NCBI RefSeq assembly: GCF_022201045.2
Contig: NC_068557.1
Location: forward strand, 6,200,001 to 6,264,000
Source: Citrus sinensis
Taxonomy: Eukaryota > Streptophyta > Magnoliopsida > Sapindales > Rutaceae
Length of the DNA stretch: 64,000 bases
Direction of reading: 5' to 3'
Shown here piece after piece: positions 41,501 through 62,619 of the stretch. The notes under the pieces are model-generated. The model saw nothing but the letters and a program-made list of their open reading frames with translations, was not told the origin of the DNA and searched no databases. A program made the translations under genes and the position numbers. How positions within the stretch are numbered: position 1 is the stretch's first letter; each line of letters starts with the position of its first letter.

Positions 41501-41711
41501 CCCTCTTGGCAACCCTAGGAGAACACCCACAGGGTAAAAAGGCAATTAATTTTAAGTGTTCGCTTATCCCCTCTCCTGCCTTTCAGGGTAAAAAGGCAAA
41601 TAATTTTAAGCTTTCACTTATTCCTTCTCCTGCCTTTCAGGGCAATATTCAGCGGATGATGCATGGGAGTTCAAAGAGCTGGAAGAGGCAATTACTAAAA
41701 ACTACTTCTAA
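35598..41711 (+). CDS. TruB-family tRNA pseudouridine synthase, organelle-targeted
   Basis: Nine exons join in phase to 528 residues: 35598-36552, 37639-37694, 37794-37876, 38683-38761, 39343-39453, 40131-40240, 40824-40907, 41356-41393, 41641-41711. The first 45 or so residues are Ser/Arg/Leu-rich without acids, as in a mitochondrial or plastid transit peptide. A charged extension follows to about residue 310. The TruB domain starts at MVLVNKPKGWTSF and carries VGHAGTLDPMATGLL, with the catalytic Asp at about 345; later motifs are VPPMFSAIKVGG, KGTYIRSLCADFG and AHLTALRRDSIG. TruB enzymes make pseudouridine 55 in tRNA. No separate PUA domain is seen. The last exon and its acceptor are each part of tandem duplications. 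Confidence 0.93.
41533..41640 (+). repeat. 54-bp tandem duplication carrying the last 3' splice site of the TruB gene
   Basis: Units 41533-41586 and 41587-41640 both start GGTAAAAAGGCAA and both end in CTCCTGCCTTTCAG. The intron therefore ends with two equivalent polypyrimidine-AG acceptors 54 nt apart, plus a weaker 'cccacag' just before unit 1. Only the last acceptor (exon from 41641) keeps the reading frame open; either upstream one would place TAA directly after the junction codon. Confidence 0.85.
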
Positions 41712-42236
41712 TTTATGCTCCTTACAAAGGTAGTTTAGGTTATATTCACTTTGTCAGGAAAACGAGTTGCAGCAGTTTCTTGTATAAGAAATCTACAATA
41801 TTCATTCTTTAGTAAACTGTTTTAAGAAATTTATGTGTATAGAGAAAAATTTAAGCTCATTCTTGGGTCTTATCCTTGAAATGGTAATTCCACAAATAAT
41901 ATACTTGGAATTTACTAGAAATTGAACTCATATCTCATGTGCAAAACTAAACATCAAAGAGCTGGAAGAGGCAATTACTAAAAACTGCTTCTAATTTATG
42001 CTCCTTACAAAGGTAGTTTCGGTTATATTCACTTTGTCAGGAAAACGAGTTGCAGCAGTTTCTTGTATAAGAAATCTACAATATTCATTCTTTAGTAAAC
42101 TGTTTTAAGAAATTTATGTGTATAGAGAAAAATTTAAGCTCATTCTTGGGTCTTATCCTTGAAACGGTAATTCCACAAATAATATACTTGGAATTTACTA
42201 GAAATTGAACTCATATCTCATGTGCAAAACTAAACA
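41671..42236 (+). repeat. 283-bp tandem duplication of the TruB terminal exon end and 3' UTR
   Basis: Copy 1 (41671-41953) contains the last 13 codons, the stop and the 3' UTR. Copy 2 (41954-42236) repeats it almost exactly; visible differences include tactt/tgctt in the coding part, ttaggtt/ttcggtt and aatgg/aacgg. Copy 2 has no acceptor of its own and is probably extra 3' UTR or spacer. The near identity points to a recent event. Confidence 0.88.
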
Positions 42237-42428
42237 TCATTGATTTTGGGTGCAAGAACTATTTGCTACAAAATCCCTTTTTTTTTTTACTAAAAATATA
42301 AAAAGTTCAATTCTTAACTAGTAAACAAAATAAAAAGCTAAGACTAATGAGTATAATATTATGGGGAGGATGAATAAATTAAATAAAGTCGGATGTGAAA
42401 CTGCAAAGTAGGAATTTGGAGACTTTGA

Positions 42429-44765: not shown

Positions 44766-47660
44766 TGTCTCTGCAGGTTTTATGGTTGCACTGCACTTTA
44801 AGATGACAATGTGCCGCCACTCTTAATTTGCATTAGTAAAAAGATAAAACAAATAAAATAAGAGATTAACTTTGTCTTCGAAAAGACCATACCTTCGCAA
44901 TGGTGCTGCCATTGTTGATTACGACGACGACGACGATGATGATGATCAAATTCAAATCTACTAACTGTATAATCTGAACTGATGATCACAGAGGTGCAAG
45001 TTGAACTCCAAGAAGAAGTACATAGATATCGAAATGAACAACTTTATTATGGCAACACAATCTGCCCTGAAATGTCATTAATTCATCGTATCTATAAGAA
45101 TATTAAAAAGGCACAAACAGGGTATATATAGCAATTACAACAGGATCCACATAAAAATCTATCACCAATAAAATTATAACATTTCCATATAACATTTCTT
45201 CATCATCAAGGCAAGAACAATATCATATAACATTTCCATTAAGCGCAATATTATCAACTCAATCAAATAAAAAAAAAAACAAAAAATGAATCATGAATCT
45301 GAATAGAAACACAATGCTTATTCCATGCAAATGATGAGAACAAACAATGTTTCACATCAAACGCGACGTACCCTTTTTTTCGGCACAAAAGAGGAAACAA
45401 TCCCGACTAAATAATTAACGAGATCACGTACGTAAATAAATAAAAATAATAATAAATAATTTATTTGGACAAGAAGATGGCGTTTTAGCTTCTCATATGT
45501 TTATGTTTCAGCTTCGGCTTCTCCGAGGAATCTGTTTTCTAACTGAAACTAAAGAACAGAAGAAGAAGTGATCGAATGAAACTGATTTCTTTTTCTTGTA
45601 TTTTTCCATTTTTTTGGTCGTAAAATTTAGAAAGTAAATGAAAACGCCAAAATTAATAAAAAAAATATAAAAAAATGAATGCAACGGTTTCCATGTAAAA
45701 CTCTTTACCTTAATAGTTGGAACGGATCGCTATGACGTCATCAATATGTGTGCCACGTAATGTTTTTCAATTAATTTTGTTGATTTAATCATTGTTATTG
45801 CTATTATTATTATTTGAACTTTTTTGGTTCAACAAGTCTGCACGTTATGTCTTCTCAGAACCATTAAAAAATAAAAAAAATAAAAAAAAAAGGTCTGCAC
45901 GTTAAGTATTTGGAAGCTTGCCGAAGAAAACTGCATGCAGAAGAACACTACGTGCAGCGTGTTCGCGAAAACTTACAGTGTCCTATATATACATAATTTA
46001 TTTATATTATTATTCTTTTTAATTAAGGTTTTTATTAATTTTGCAGATATTTATTTCCTATTAAGAGTATATAAAATCAAATTATATTATATATATATAT
46101 AGAAAGGACAACTAATATGATTTTCTTGTTTAGTTATTGTATTTAATTGGAAAGATAATTAAAACTATATTATGCATTTACGAAGCAACTTTAGTCAACC
46201 AATTTTAAATGGGTCAGTTTTCTACGCAATTACGAATTTCAAACTCATCATGAGGTAACTCAAACGTTATTCAATCAATCAAGTAAATATATGAAGCAAA
46301 AGCAAGATGATGAATATAATCAATTGTAATAATCTCGATTAAATTCTCAAATATATAGATACTGCGTCTTCGGAAGTGTGTTTTGAACACAACACAATTC
46401 TAATTTATATTATTTTTTTATGATTTAATATAAGATTATTGCTGCAAATTGATTATTCTTAGAGCTAGCATATATATATATATATATATAGTAAGATGTG
46501 GGTAAAGTTAAACTCGAGTGGCTAGTCAAATAAAAAAATTAAAAATCAGTTGGTCATATTATTATTTATATTTTTTTTTCTGAATGAATGAAGATTATTA
46601 AAGTTAAAATTGTATAAAAGTACGAAAAACGTATAAATGATTGATAGGTGATTAGTTTAGCCGAATTAATATTTTTAAAACTTTTTGAATGAAACTTTAA
46701 TTTAGGTTAAGGTTATTGATATAGCTTATTATTTGGCACAAAGTGCGGCCACCTCAATGGAACTCATATAACCCAGGTGGGTACATGCCATGTATGAAAC
46801 TAAATATTTGATCCAAAACTTCCACCAAAGTTTAATTTTGCATAATAATATTGATAAACCTCTTTACAATTCAACCTGTCTTCCAGCTTTTAGTTGCAAA
46901 GGCGAGTGAGCGAGCATATAAAATTTGATTAAGAGACCGTCTTAAGCGAAAAAAGAAAAGAAAAAAAAAAACACATTTATATACTGAAAAAATAAATATT
47001 TAGAGGGTGAAGCCATTTGCACTTGGAATACTTTAATTTGCACTTGGAATACTTTTTAACTCTGCAAACATATTTAATAAAATTTAAGAATTATTTACGA
47101 TTTCTTCTAGTCTAGGCAGACAATTAGTTGAATAACATTGGGTAAATATTTATTTAGTCTTTTTTATTTTGGATTGAATGTTGGTAAAGACTATATAATT
47201 TAAAAAATATTTTAAGACACTCATACTATTAAAAATGTTACAATCAGTAAATCAGAATGAAGAAGATCAACGAATTGGTAATTTAAATGATGTTTTTTAG
47301 ATTTTTTTATTTTATTATTATTATTATTTTAAGAAATGTTGTATGAGAATGAGGTTTCTAATCCAATAGACATCAACTCTCGGAGACTCGGACCCCTATT
47401 ATTTACTTAAACACGACACATGGCTGACTGCAGGCATTAAAGTATATTTCCATCCAAGGACATCTTTTAAGTTTAAAACCTGAAAAAAAAAAACGAAAAA
47501 AACAATAGTTAATAAACATAAAAACCGAGCCAGCATTGTATACCTTCAATGCAAAATTCTATGCAATCCTAGTTAATTGATCATCACTGATTAATCAAAT
47601 GTACAGAATAATTTGTATGATGAAACATTTATAATTAATATCTTTCTTGTTTTTGTCAAG
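44766..47660. other. DUF707 leader/promoter and AT-rich spacer
   Basis: The DUF707 5' UTR, possibly with a leader intron, should lie between 44766 and about 45560. Beyond it the spacer has no coding frame. A TA run at about 46472-46490 and a 22-bp tandem repeat ('tttgcacttggaatacttt') at about 47018-47060 are the only structured parts noticed. Confidence 0.5.
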
Positions 47661-48513
47661 GTTTTTGTTGGGGGACTTAACATAAGATTTCTAGGTATCC
47701 AACTCAAAAGATTAGCCTTTTAGGTGGAGTGACCTACCACCTTATAAACCTAAGCATCTCCCCTTTACTAGCCAATGTGGGACACAACTCAACAATCCCC
47801 CCCTCGGACGAAACCACCGCCGGACTCTGGTTCTTTCGTCCGACACACCTGAGTTGTTCCACCACCACATTCCGGCTACTAGGGTCTAGCTCTGATACTA
47901 CTTGTTGGGGGAACTTAACATAAGATTTTTAGGTATCCAACCCAAAAGACTAGCCTTTTAAGTGGAGTGACCTACCACCTTATAAACCCAAGCATCTCCC
48001 CTTTACTAGCTAATGTGGGACACAACTCAACAATCCCCCCCTCGGACGAAACCACCGCCGGACTCCGGTTCTTTTGTCCGACACACCTGGGTTGTTCCAC
48101 CACCACATTTCGGCTACTAAGGTCTAGCTCTGATACTACTTGTTGGGGGGACTTAACATAAAATTTCTAGGTATCCAACCCAAAAGACTAGCCTTTTAAG
48201 TGGAGTGACCTACCACCTTATAAACCCAAGCATCTCCCCTTTACTAGCTAATGTGGGACACAACTCAACAATCCCCCCCTCGGACGAAACCACCGCCGGA
48301 CTCCGGTTCTTTTGTCCGACACACCTGAGTTGTTCCACCACCACATTCCGGCTACTAAGGTCTAGCTCTGATACTGCTTGTTGGGGGGACTTAACATAAG
48401 ATTTCTAGGTATCCAACCCAAAAGACTAGCCTTTTAAATGGAGTGACCTACCGCCTTATAAACCCAAGCATCTCCCCTTTACTAGCCAATGTGGGACACA
48501 ACTCAACAGTTTT
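47661..48513 (-). mobile_element. tandem TRIM retrotransposon array: four LTRs, three internal domains, one target duplication
   Basis: The 843-bp block 47666-48508 is flanked on both sides by GTTTT (47661-47665 and 48509-48513). Read on the minus strand, LTRs of about 130 bp run TGTTGAGTTGTGTCCCACAT to CCAACA at 48508-48379, 48270-48141, 48032-47903 and 47794-47666. After each of the first three comes a 108-bp internal part: TAGTATCAGAGC (CAGTATCAGAGC in one), close to the tRNA-iMet primer-binding site TGGTATCAGAGC, a non-coding stretch, and the polypurine tract GAGGGGGGGAT just before the next LTR. Each LTR holds a TATA-like TTTATAAGG. There is no gag or pol, so this is a terminal-repeat retrotransposon in miniature, dependent on other elements. 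Confidence 0.88.
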
Positions 48514-48595
48514 AATTGGAAAATCATATTTAACACACACACCATCAACTTTTATCGCTATATATATATTGCAATAAATATAATTTTTAAGTCAA

Positions 48596-49062
48596 TCCAG
48601 AGATCATTTCGATTCCATTAGTAATGAGGATTCGGAATATCACACATTGATCAATCAAAGAGAGATTCAACAACTAAAAGAAAGATCGATTCTTTGGGAT
48701 CCTTCTTTTCTTCAAGCGGAACGAAGAGAGATAGAATCAGACCGATTCCCTAAATGTCTTTCTGGATATTCCTCAATGTCCCGGCTATTCACGGAACGTG
48801 AAAGGCAGATGAATAAGCATCTGCTTCCGGAAGAAATCGAAGAATTTCTTGGGAATCCTACAAGATCCATTGGTTCTTTTTTCTCTGACAGATGGTCAGA
48901 ACTTTATATGGGTTCGAATCCTACTAAGAGGTCCACTAGAGATCAGAAATTATTAAAGAAAGAAGAGGATGTTTCTTTTGTCCCTTCCAGGCCATCATAA
49001 AATAAAGAAATAGTTAATATATTCAAGATAATTATGTATTTACAAAATACCTTCTCAATTCA
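48596..49062 (+). pseudogene. ycf2: nuclear insertion of chloroplast DNA: ycf2 fragment
   Basis: About 467 bp match an internal part of the plastid gene ycf2: [51 protein letters not shown] and [15 protein letters not shown] are Ycf2 protein segments. The frame is open to 48997, then a TAA replaces what I recall as a glutamate codon after PSRPS; plastid-like sequence continues past it (NKEIVNIFKIITYLQNT) to about 49062. It has no start or end of the gene and sits in AT-rich nuclear DNA about 80 bp from the TRIM array. The few substitutions suggest a fairly recent transfer. Confidence 0.92.
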
Positions 49063-56436: not shown

Positions 56437-58241
56437 CAGTAAGGCCATGTGTTTGCAATTACATTAACAAGTCCCTTTTACCTGTCATTGATAAATATCA
56501 TTAGCCTACCATCATCCAAGTAATTATGCAGGTGCTCCATAAATCAGCCTCATGTCTCTGTATTCTCAATCTCACAAACATATAATGCCAACGAAACAAT
56601 CCCATTCTTAATGCAGGTGCTCCATAAACCAGCCCCATGTCTCTGTATTCTCAATCTCACAAACACATAATGTCAACGAAACAATCCCATTGTTAGCATC
56701 CATACTAATGGCAGCTAACAGCACTCCACCATACTTACCCTTCAAGTGACATCTATCCACTCCAATAAAAGGCTTACAAACAATGAGAAAAGCATTTTTC
56801 TGTGTAGGAAAGGAAACAAAAAACTTTTGGAATAAAACCTTGTTAGGTATAGAGACAACATCATACAACACTTTGCAAATTGTACTTGGATCAGCTTTCT
56901 GAATAGCTACAACATACTGAAACAATTTTTGATATCCCTTGGAATGATCCCCAAATACCTCAAGTCTTGCCTTCACTCTAGCCCTATACAATGTCATCTT
57001 TCCAATTTTCAACCCAAAAGTATCTTGTATATAATTCTTTAAGATATCGATCTTCACATTGGGATCAACCGTAATTTGATTCTTTATTTTACTAGCAACC
57101 CACGTCAAAGTTACTTTTACTGTTTTATTAGTAAGTCTGCAGTTATGCTTTTTTATGTACTCTCACAATATAAAACCACTTATGCCATTCATTTTTGCAC
57201 CAACCACATACCATGGACAGCCAGCTTGTTTACAAGTAGCCACAAATCTTCTCGGCTCACTATATATTATTTTAATAGCGAACCTTTTCCTAACCCTCAC
57301 CTTATTTAATATCTCTTTAAAATGAACTACATCTTTCAACACATGCCCTACTTTTAGCTTATGTTTCCTATCAGCACCCACTTTGTACTCATGTTCCTCT
57401 AGATGATTAGTCAATTGGGTAGTGCCAAGCTCAATGTCATCATCAGAAGAGTTAATCACTTTTTTTTATCTCTTTATCAACATTAGATAAATTATCATCT
57501 GAATCAGCTTCCAAGTGGCTGCCTTTAAGTCTTTCACTACCCCCACTGCCCTCATTATCCTCACTATTTGCATAAACAATAGTAGGTTCCGCAGCTCCAT
57601 CAGTAACTCCATCAACAACTCTATCAAGATTAGCTTGCATAAAGTTCACATCAAGATCATCATCATTGCTAAGCCTTCTGTCTGAACAATCAGATAGCAA
57701 TGCATCCTCATCAGATTCATCATCCCCAACAAGAATATTTTTCTCAACAGCAGCATGTACCCCTACAACAGCATGCCCCCCAACACCAGCATTTTCCTCA
57801 ACAGAAGCATATCCCTCAATCGAGTCATTTAGTTGAGTAATAAGCCCATCAAATAATACAACTCCTAAGTTAGTCAACAAGGCCTGAAACAAAGGAGCAT
57901 CTTTGAACGGAGGGTAAAGAACTAGTACAACGTCAAACTTCAATTACACGAGCACCCAAACGCTTATGTAGTGCGACCAAACACTCCAACCTAAAGTTTG
58001 AATCTAGCACAATCTTAAGCTTATTCTCTGGGTTTGTAACATTTAACAGAATATGTGAGCTTGAGCCTAATCTGTATGCACTTATAATCGTCAATGCAAC
58101 ATCTTTTATTTTGGCAATAATACAATCAGGTCCAAGCGACCTAAAATTCTGTTTCTTATCTTTGAAGAATATCATTAACTCCAGTTGTGTCATCCTAAAC
58201 ATCGAAAACAATTTAGCAGATTCAGCGATTATAAAATACAT
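56437..58241 (-). pseudogene. broken MuDR/MULE transposase relic
   Basis: Read right to left, pieces of one transposase lie in order but in shifted frames: an N-terminal part (58241-57933), an acidic Ser/Asp/Gly-rich part (57943-57452), the MuDR DNA-binding region (57459-57163, CKQAGCPWYVVG), then the start of the catalytic core (57108-56608, FIGVDRCHLKGKYGGVLLAA). Breaks: a frameshift near 57940, a slip at an A run near 57460, a TGA at 57160-57162 in an otherwise continuous frame, and a stop at the junction of an 85-bp duplication. Beyond it FINDR, a stop and KGLVN mark the second catalytic Asp motif, and homology ends near 56437. The third acidic residue and SWIM finger are missing. It resembles, but is clearly diverged from, the intact transposase at 59669-62619. 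Confidence 0.82.
56526..56695 (-). repeat. 85-bp tandem duplication inside the MULE relic
   Basis: Units 56526-56610 and 56611-56695 both begin ATGCAGGTGCTCCATAAA and cover the region encoding NGIVSL...EIENTET...FMEHLH. They differ at several bases; the left unit has extra stop codons (TGA in place of Trp). The duplication breaks the transposase frame, giving TAA at its junction. Confidence 0.85.
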
Positions 58242-59668: not shown

Positions 59669-62619
59669 ATGTCCCGCTCTGAATTTCACCGATGCTCGAA
59701 AGATTTGAATCGGTATGTTGAAATTAATTATAGGTTAGTTTTGAATCAAGCTTTTTTTTTTTGCTCCATTTAGAGCGTATTGATATTATGGTGAGTTGTT
59801 TGTAAATGTCAAGTTTATGCTTCATTATTTGTTCATTGACACATCTTTGATAATGTTTATGGAACTATGAAACATAAAACCGAGAATAAATTTTCCAACG
59901 CCATTTTGGGTATTTTGCAAGCATATGGTTTTAGCTTATGTTACGGTTGATTATGCATTTGCAAGCATATGGTAATATTCATGATGTAATTTTTAAAGTG
60001 AGTTTTAATAAGCTTGAAATAGATGATGTGCTGCATTTTTGTGCTACTACCAGTCAACTACACTTTGCATTTTCTATTTACTAAATTTTAGCTTTTTCTT
60101 TAACATTAATAGCATTTATTTATGTTGTTTTATTGCATTACAGTGTTGTGCATTATGATGTTGAAGCAGTAGTTGATGGCAAGGTGACTGAGATAACTCC
60201 TGAAAATCAGTTTTCTGTCAACCTCAATGCCGATCCTGAAATTAATTGGAATGAACTAGATGATGTTGAAGAAATTAACAACGAGAATAATATGACGCAA
60301 TTCAGTATTCGGAGTGGTTATTTACTCGAAGATGATATGACAGTACACTTTAGCTCTGAGAATTCTGGGAAAAATGGCAAAGGTTCAACTGACACAATTT
60401 ATACTTCTAAATCAGATGGTGAAGAAAGTGATGAAGAGAATGCAAGATCAGATGGTGAAGAAAGTGACTATGTTCTTGATGATTATCAGTCAGGTGATGA
60501 GACTGGTGATGAATTTGATTCGTCTGATGAGGAAATTGCTGCTTGTGTGAGATATGACACCAATTCAGGTGGATTTGAGTTCACACAAGATGGAGATAAC
60601 CTTGTTCTACGGCCTGGTCAGTTGTTTGTAGATGTTTATGAGTTTAGGAAGGTGTTGAGGGTATATGCCATCAGAAATGGCTTCAGATTGTATAGACTTA
60701 AAAATGAAAAAGCCAGAGTGACAGCTAGATGTGCTAAGTCAGGATGTACATGGAGAATTCATGCTAGTCCAAACTGGAACAGCAACTCATTTCAAATTAA
60801 GACCCTATGTGATGTTCATACATGTGGTGGGATTGATGATGATAACAGAGAAGCTACTTCAACCTGGATTGCAGCCACTTATCTTCATATCTTCAAGTCA
60901 ACTCCCGAAGTCAGTGTCAAGTTAATAGCAGCTGAGCTTTTGAAAAAGTATGGCATTGAGTGCAGTGTGCATAGGTTATACAGAGCAAAACAAAAAGCAC
61001 TTGAGTTACTTGGCCAAGATCACAAGAAAAGTTACAGCAAACTGAGTAGATACCAACAAGCTTTGATAAAGTATAACCCTGGATCCACAGTAGCTATTGA
61101 GAGGGAATTGAATGGAGATACAGCTCACCCAGTATTTAAAAGATTTTTCATGATGCTTGATGCAAGTAGGAGAGGTTTTTTTGAAGGCTGTAGACAGTTT
61201 GTAGGGGTTGATGGCTGCCATCTAAAAGGGCCATATAAAGGAGTTTTATTGACTGCAGTTGGGATTGATGCTAATTATGGTATATATCCACTAGCCTTAT
61301 GTGTAGTAGAGAGTGAAAACACTTACTCTTGGGAGTTTTTCATGGAAAAGCTATATGACCAGATTGGTTGTAATGGTGGACAAGGCCTATGTTTCATGAG
61401 TGATCGACAAAAAGGAGTGATCAATGCAATTGATAGAGTGTTTCCTAATGCAATCAAAAGATACTGTTGTAGGCATATTTATGCCAATTTCAAGCAAAAG
61501 TTTCCTGGCACTTTGTTGAAAAAGGTCTTTTGGAAGGCATGTAGAAGTCCAAACTACTCAGAATTCAGTGAAAGCATTGAGGAATTAAAGAAAATCAGCG
61601 ATGCAGCTCACCGGTGGCTCATGAACATTCCAACTGTATATTGGGCTAAACACACTTTTCCTAACCACACCAAGTGCAATCATGTGACCAATAACATGAC
61701 TGAATCATTCAATAACTGGATTAACAGTTTTAGAGGCATGCCTATTGTTAGGATGCTCGAAGAGATAAGGAGAAAGATTATGAAACTCATTCATAAAAGG
61801 AATGAGGATGCAAAGAAATGGAATGGACATCTACCACCTCTTGTTAGGAGAAAGATTGTGGAAGCAAGAGCTGCAGCGAGAGGTTTAACAGTGATATTTG
61901 GTCATGAAAACACCTTCGAAGTGATGGAAGATCTTTGTAAAGTATTCGTAGTAGATTTAGGTAAAAAAACTTGTAATTGTGGGGAATGGCAGATATCCGG
62001 CTTACCTTGTAAGCATAGTGTTTGTTCCATTGATGCAAAAAGGCTCAACATTAAAGATTATATCCATAATTATCTGAAATGTCCAGCTTTTATCAACACC
62101 TACAAGTATCAATACTTTCCTTTACCTGATGAGAAGATGTGGCCACTGGTTCTACATGATAATTTGCAGCCACCTATAATTATCAAGTCTGTTGGCCGGC
62201 CACAGATCAAGAGGAGGAAAGAAGCTGATGAACCAGCTACATTCAAGAGGAGTTCAAGTGTCAAATGTTCTAAGTGTGAGCATTGGGGTCATAACAAGAG
62301 AACCTGCAAAAGAACAAAAGTATCTAGCAAACAGGTTAATTATCATCTCTCTTTCATTTAGTAGTTAAATTTAATTAATTTAATTGCTTATGATGTAATG
62401 GGTGTGGCATAGGTTGTGAATGGTGAAGGCACTTCTAATTCTAATCAGCCTATAACTCAAAGGGTTGCTTGCAGTGCACTATCTCAGCCTACTGTCCATG
62501 ACAATGGTGAGTTTTATTCACGATTCTTTAAATAATTTTAGTAATCATCATCTACTTTTTTTAATTTTCATATGTAAGTGTTTGTTTTATTCATGCCAGG
62601 ACATGTTACTCAAGAATGA
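59669..62619 (+). CDS. intact MuDR-type (MULE) transposase with SWIM finger and zinc knuckle
   Basis: Four exons join in phase to 782 residues: 59669-59712, 60144-62334, 62413-62506, 62600-62619. The long exon lacks an ATG at its 5' end and follows an AG acceptor; the 44-nt exon MSRSEFHRCSKDLNR supplies the start and joins in frame. Order: acidic Ser/Asp/Glu-rich region to about 150; MuDR DNA-binding domain at about 171-240 (ARCAKSGCTWRIHA); catalytic domain with Asp371 (GVDGCHLKG), Asp435 (FMSDRQKG), CCRHIYANF and Glu535 (NMTESFN); SWIM finger C625-x-C627-x9-C637-x-H639; zinc knuckle C723-C726-H731-C736. Nothing in the frame is broken, so an active or recently active element is plausible, or a domesticated copy. 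Terminal inverted repeats were not identified, and one end probably lies beyond the window. Confidence 0.88.

Follow-up and report, generated by a model that had tools for sequence, protein, structure and literature searches.

The window examined here is a 64,000-nucleotide stretch of the sweet orange (Citrus sinensis) genome, and all coordinates are counted from its first letter. At 47666-48508 it carries four LTRs alternating with three internal parts (LTR-int-LTR-int-LTR-int-LTR) in a single orientation, spanning 843 bp with a period of 238 bp. The LTRs measure 129, 130, 130 and 130 bp and each internal part 108 bp. The element lies on the minus strand, its GTTTT target-site duplication (TSD) reading AAAAC/AAAAC on the element strand, and units are numbered below in element order, with base states given by alignment column:

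47661..47665, no strand: target-site duplication, left copy GTTTT
47666..47794, minus: LTR 4 (element 3′ end), one C missing close to its end; columns 22 and 72 ancestral
47795..47902, minus: internal unit 3, primer site at the high-coordinate end and polypurine tract at the low-coordinate end; without derived 21T and 66A
47903..48032, minus: LTR 3, with derived 22A and 72T
48033..48140, minus: internal unit 2, with derived 21T and 66A
48141..48270, minus: LTR 2, with derived 22A and 72T
48271..48378, minus: internal unit 1, with derived 21T and 66A
48379..48508, minus: LTR 1 (element 5′ end), with derived 72T; ancestral at column 22
48509..48513, no strand: target-site duplication, right copy GTTTT

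GTTTT occurs only outside the array, and the inner LTR/internal joins are direct with no further duplication. Tandem Repeats Finder returned a period of 238, 3.6 copies, 96% matches and a score of 1562. The first-pass annotation had described four LTRs and three internals with a unit of about 238 bp and GTTTT on the outside only, which the coordinates, the repeat search and the flanks confirmed; its reading of the block as one insertion is supported by the single outer TSD. The units are not identical, the LTRs differing by 3 to 7 and the internals by 3 to 5, with 7 differences between the outer LTRs (6 substitutions and one gap). About 80 bases past the right target duplication, a fragment of plastid ycf2 (48584-49000; Pfam Ycf2, E 1e-77) represents a nuclear copy of plastid DNA adjoining the array. 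Elsewhere in the window lie a direct tandem duplication of 283 bp with 98% matches (41671-42239), a 758-aa open frame with MULE, MuDR and SWIM domains (60085-62361) and a shorter fragment (56608-57162) with a MULE match just under the Pfam cut-off.

The arrayed element is a TRIM, a non-coding miniature LTR retrotransposon, in tandem, a kind already known (PMC4717578, PMC4528315). Its LTRs are short (129-130 bp) and end in TGTTG..CAACA on the minus strand. A primer-binding site adjoins the end of LTRs 1, 2 and 3; at this place the young relative L081 reads TGGTATCAGAGC, and tRNA-Met genes of the same genome end in bases complementary to the L081 site (all three loci scanned hold a tRNA-Met gene). 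The CCA at the 3′ end of a tRNA is added after transcription of its gene. All three array internals (47795-48378) carry a change in the primer-binding site opposite this CCA end; 6 of 87 internals outside the array show the same base. A G-rich polypurine tract, GAGGGGGGGAT, closes each internal part ahead of the following LTR, and no stop-to-stop frame of at least 90 aa overlaps 47661-48513. The TSD is 5 bp long, the family is dispersed and multicopy (matches on nine contigs), and the array unites at least three LTRs and at least two internals, all oriented alike, inside a single TSD, as in tandemly arrayed TRIMs (TA-TRIMs). No Rfam family gave a match up to E 1 within 47400-48800, neither the 5S rRNA-like stretch that marks Cassandra nor the hammerhead ribozyme that marks retrozymes, and links to both were dropped on this ground; the Cassandra arrays described in PMC7215508 resemble the window array as short non-coding LTR elements in tandem but differ from it in the 5S RNA match.

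A DNA search of the genome with the element, in which 40 of 210 candidates were scored, gave at least 43 matches. A 27-base LTR-internal junction pattern was present at 100 places when up to 3 mismatches were allowed, and an LTR-body pattern at 95 places when up to 2 were. The unit analyses cover 80 loci from the junction-pattern set (all clusters but one, L104) together with the window array. Two-LTR elements make up 54 of these 81 loci and tandem arrays 8; the remainder are 2 inverted pairs and 17 partial copies. Twelve further loci, L104 among them, were used for solo LTRs only and yielded nine, so that both the two-LTR and the solo forms that the first-pass annotation proposed to look for are present; the nine solo LTRs indicate that LTR-LTR recombination occurs in the family. 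Five of five flanking bases are identical around the solo LTRs L096, L097, L098, L100 and L102 (the last in an AT repeat) and four of five in L095 and L099, with no match in the other two. A duplicated empty site was sought in the genome with the left flank only, which recurred at 15 other places in stretches no longer than 127 bp, all of which stop short of the insertion point.

The outer flanks of the tandem arrays agree at 5/5 bases in the window, L024, L027 and L030 and at 4/5 in L021 and L040, and lack a match in L062 (2/5) and L084 (0/5), both of which have irregular outer ends. As a control for chance agreement, 52 family elements whose outer ends read TG..CA, arrays among them, were compared: 39 had four or five of the five flank bases identical, a level reached in 36 of 1040 comparisons when the positions were shifted. 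A strict search for pairs of exact primer sites spaced by about 238 bp returned three places in the genome, namely the window array, L027 and L040. On the strength of the locus classes and of the outer-flank matches of the eight arrays, tandem copies are a regular minority form of the family, and each is a single insertion where its ends are intact.

To order events within the array, the states of the units were polarised with three young real family copies as outgroup; hits under 80% of unit length were dropped at first and those under 75% after realignment, and 80 of 91 internals and 129 of 157 LTRs were retained for comparing pairs between loci. The unit comparison proposed in the first-pass annotation was thus carried out through shared derived states and distances, not through a tree. 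All three internals carry 4A and 71A, which may be older than the insertion, and 21T and 66A are confined to internals 1 and 2; among the LTRs, 115T is common to all four, 72T to LTRs 1-3 and 22A to LTRs 2-3. Internals 1 and 2 therefore share 4 derived states, a number matched by 2 of 879 between-locus pairs of comparable divergence, while internals 1-3 and 2-3 share 2 each (reached by 21/799 and 24/841 between-locus pairs). LTRs 2 and 3 share 3 derived states (0/1046), LTRs 1-2 and 1-3 share 2 (10/885 and 19/1046), and LTR 4 shares 1 with each of the others (169/885, 169/885 and 224/1046). A first MAFFT alignment made LTR 4 appear too divergent, an end-gap effect that disappeared on realignment to a real young copy, where the LTR counts are even (6, 6, 7 and 6).

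Two observations of the first-pass annotation bear on this nesting. It had set 'agccaatgtgg' in the outer LTRs against 'agctaatgtgg' in the inner ones; the contrast is real and corresponds to LTR column 22, but the outer motif is ancestral and does not group the outer LTRs, so only the state shared by the inner LTRs is informative. The states that it saw in internals 2 and 3 (plus order), and that unit 1 lacks, are those at columns 21 and 66, and both are derived relative to the outgroup copies. A 21-base stretch with 66A and 71A has just two exact matches in the genome, each of them in a unit of the window array, and these two units are the only ones among the 91 internals examined that combine 66A with 71A. 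Elsewhere in the family the nested states have frequencies of 13-20% (21T 11/87, 66A 15/88, 22A 30/151, 72T 22/153). The pair 21T and 66A recurs in 5 internals of other loci (L016, L017, L030, L079 and L084), 22A and 72T are paired in 9 other LTRs, and a single further internal, L031, combines 4A with 71A. C>T or G>A changes account for 28 of the 31 derived states in the array and for all four nested sites. Such an excess is expected from the decay of methylated cytosine.

We favour, with moderate confidence only because the nested signal consists of four recurrent C>T/G>A sites, a history of one ordinary insertion and then unequal recombination between LTRs on at least two occasions. A two-LTR TRIM would have inserted once on the minus strand, duplicating GTTTT, and would then have lengthened in place by LTR mispairing between sister chromatids or homologues. 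The state 72T would have arisen in LTR 1 ahead of a first unequal crossover of LTR 4 with LTR 1, which would have produced a three-LTR array with two internals. Next, 22A would have appeared in the inner LTR and 21T and 66A in the 5′ internal, before a second crossover of the inner LTR with LTR 1 would have duplicated both this internal and the inner LTR and brought the array to four LTRs and three internals. This two-step history fits the nested states without recurrent mutation. The structure, the single TSD, the nested derived states and the solo LTRs of the family are what we observe; the crossover as process, its partners and the order of events are what we infer. The divergence ratio between the second duplication and the insertion comes to 0.47 (interval 0.13 to 1.63), a range because of which divergence alone is no proof of a late duplication. 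The later amplification of an inner unit put forward in the first-pass annotation is thus favoured by the nested derived states and by the star simulations described below, but it is unproven, resting on four recurrently mutating sites, with integration of a heterogeneous multimer as a less likely alternative.

If the units had been identical at integration and had mutated independently, the sharing would stem from recurrent deamination, in keeping with four nested sites that are all C>T or G>A and that recur family-wide, also in the same pairs. We simulated such a star history in 20000 runs, with units identical at the start and mutating independently at family-wide site frequencies (background 67 internals and 122 LTRs). 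The total observed sharing was reached in 0/20000 runs for the internals and 2/20000 for the LTRs, and even with the sites common to all units removed in just 277/20000 and 525/20000, respectively. For the largest pairwise sharing the counts were 79 (internals) and 451 (LTRs) of the 20000 runs, and column 72 taken alone is unremarkable (1743/20000). These simulations speak against independent mutation from identical starting units, which we regard as very improbable. Gene conversion, spreading mutations among units that were identical at integration while copy number stayed constant, would likewise yield shared derived states and a single TSD, but it requires both the formation of a multimer and conversion tracts in internal and LTR, which is less parsimonious and makes it a rather improbable account. 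The array is known from assembly sequence alone, and yet an assembly artefact is scarcely credible for an array of just 843 bp whose units differ from each other as stated above and which has seven counterparts at other sites, with outer flanks of 5/5 in three and 4/5 in two.

A further alternative, which we consider unlikely, is the integration of a ready-made heterogeneous multimer, whereby the long transcript of a tandem parent was reverse transcribed, the outer LTRs being regenerated alike and the inner units keeping parental differences. The G at column 22 in the outer LTRs and the A in the inner ones are what one would expect if a tandem template had been reverse transcribed, the TSD is single, the arrays L027 and L084 look star-like, and the route has been proposed in print (PMC11899658, PMC7215508). 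This signature of like outer and like inner LTRs fails, however, at column 72, where LTR 1 differs from LTR 4 and agrees with the inner LTRs, so that the multimer needs one recurrent mutation. No parent-like copy was found among the copies examined, the paired exact primer sites being limited to the three places named above, although a parent copy could have been lost or missed.

The same sharing test was applied to all eight arrays in 4000 runs each, and the observed sharing was reached, for internals/LTRs, in 0/1 runs for the window, 1/0 for L024, 164/3 for L021, 733/43 for L062, 3196/18 for L030, 197/4000 for L040, 1567/410 for L027 and 820/503 for L084. No significant excess of sharing is seen in either part of L027 and L084, in the internals of L030 and L062 or in the LTRs of L040. 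Ordinary two-LTR elements also exceed the expected LTR sharing (mean 1.81 versus 1.18 in 42 elements), so the LTR test is not trusted for the old arrays L021, L030 and L062, in which LTR sharing is inflated by subfamily states. Because these results are mixed, we claim no single mechanism for the family. We tentatively raise, with considerable doubt, the idea that arrays arise by two routes within one TRIM family and genome, growing stepwise in place by LTR recombination (the window array and probably L024) or arriving as a multimer or being made at once (L027 and L084); if so, comparing units with sister copies could sort arrays by origin.

TA-TRIMs are reported in 35 of 43 plant genomes by Gao et al. 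2016 (PMC4717578), where sweet orange is listed with 3 TRIM families. Like the window array, they have at least three LTRs alternating with internals and TSDs outside; the account given there offers structures and PCR proof without a unit-by-unit history, to which the window array adds polarised unit states. In maize, 15 of 89 intact copies of the TRIM Wukong, a different family, contain 3 to 7 LTRs, and recombination is favoured by the authors of that study (PMC4528315); in the family studied here 8 of the 62 tandem plus two-LTR loci are tandem, and solo LTRs are present in both. For rice tandem LTR retrotransposons, which resemble the window array in their single insertion, outer TSD and shared inner LTRs, both tandem insertion and illegitimate recombination are considered possible (PMC11899658). 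The rice elements are coding and several alleles are at hand, whereas the window array is non-coding and comes from one assembly. With tiny TRIM units and many sister copies in one genome, the order of events in an array can be read from shared derived states within a single assembly. The window array is ordinary in kind, and provides an ordered example, of modest statistical strength, of a process whose mechanism is left undecided in PMC11899658, as far as that account goes.

Inverted pairs of the same TRIM are found at L025, L077 and L104 (partial in L104), a form also described in maize (PMC4717578). L036 and L037 lie 7 kb apart, share the flank duplication ATAAG and have nearly equal counts, and are probably one insertion duplicated with its surroundings. 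Finally, L054, L061 and the positions 27446006 and 28057301 of contig C5 hold TRIM copies whose spacing is similar and whose orientation is opposite, suggesting an inverted segmental duplication on this contig.
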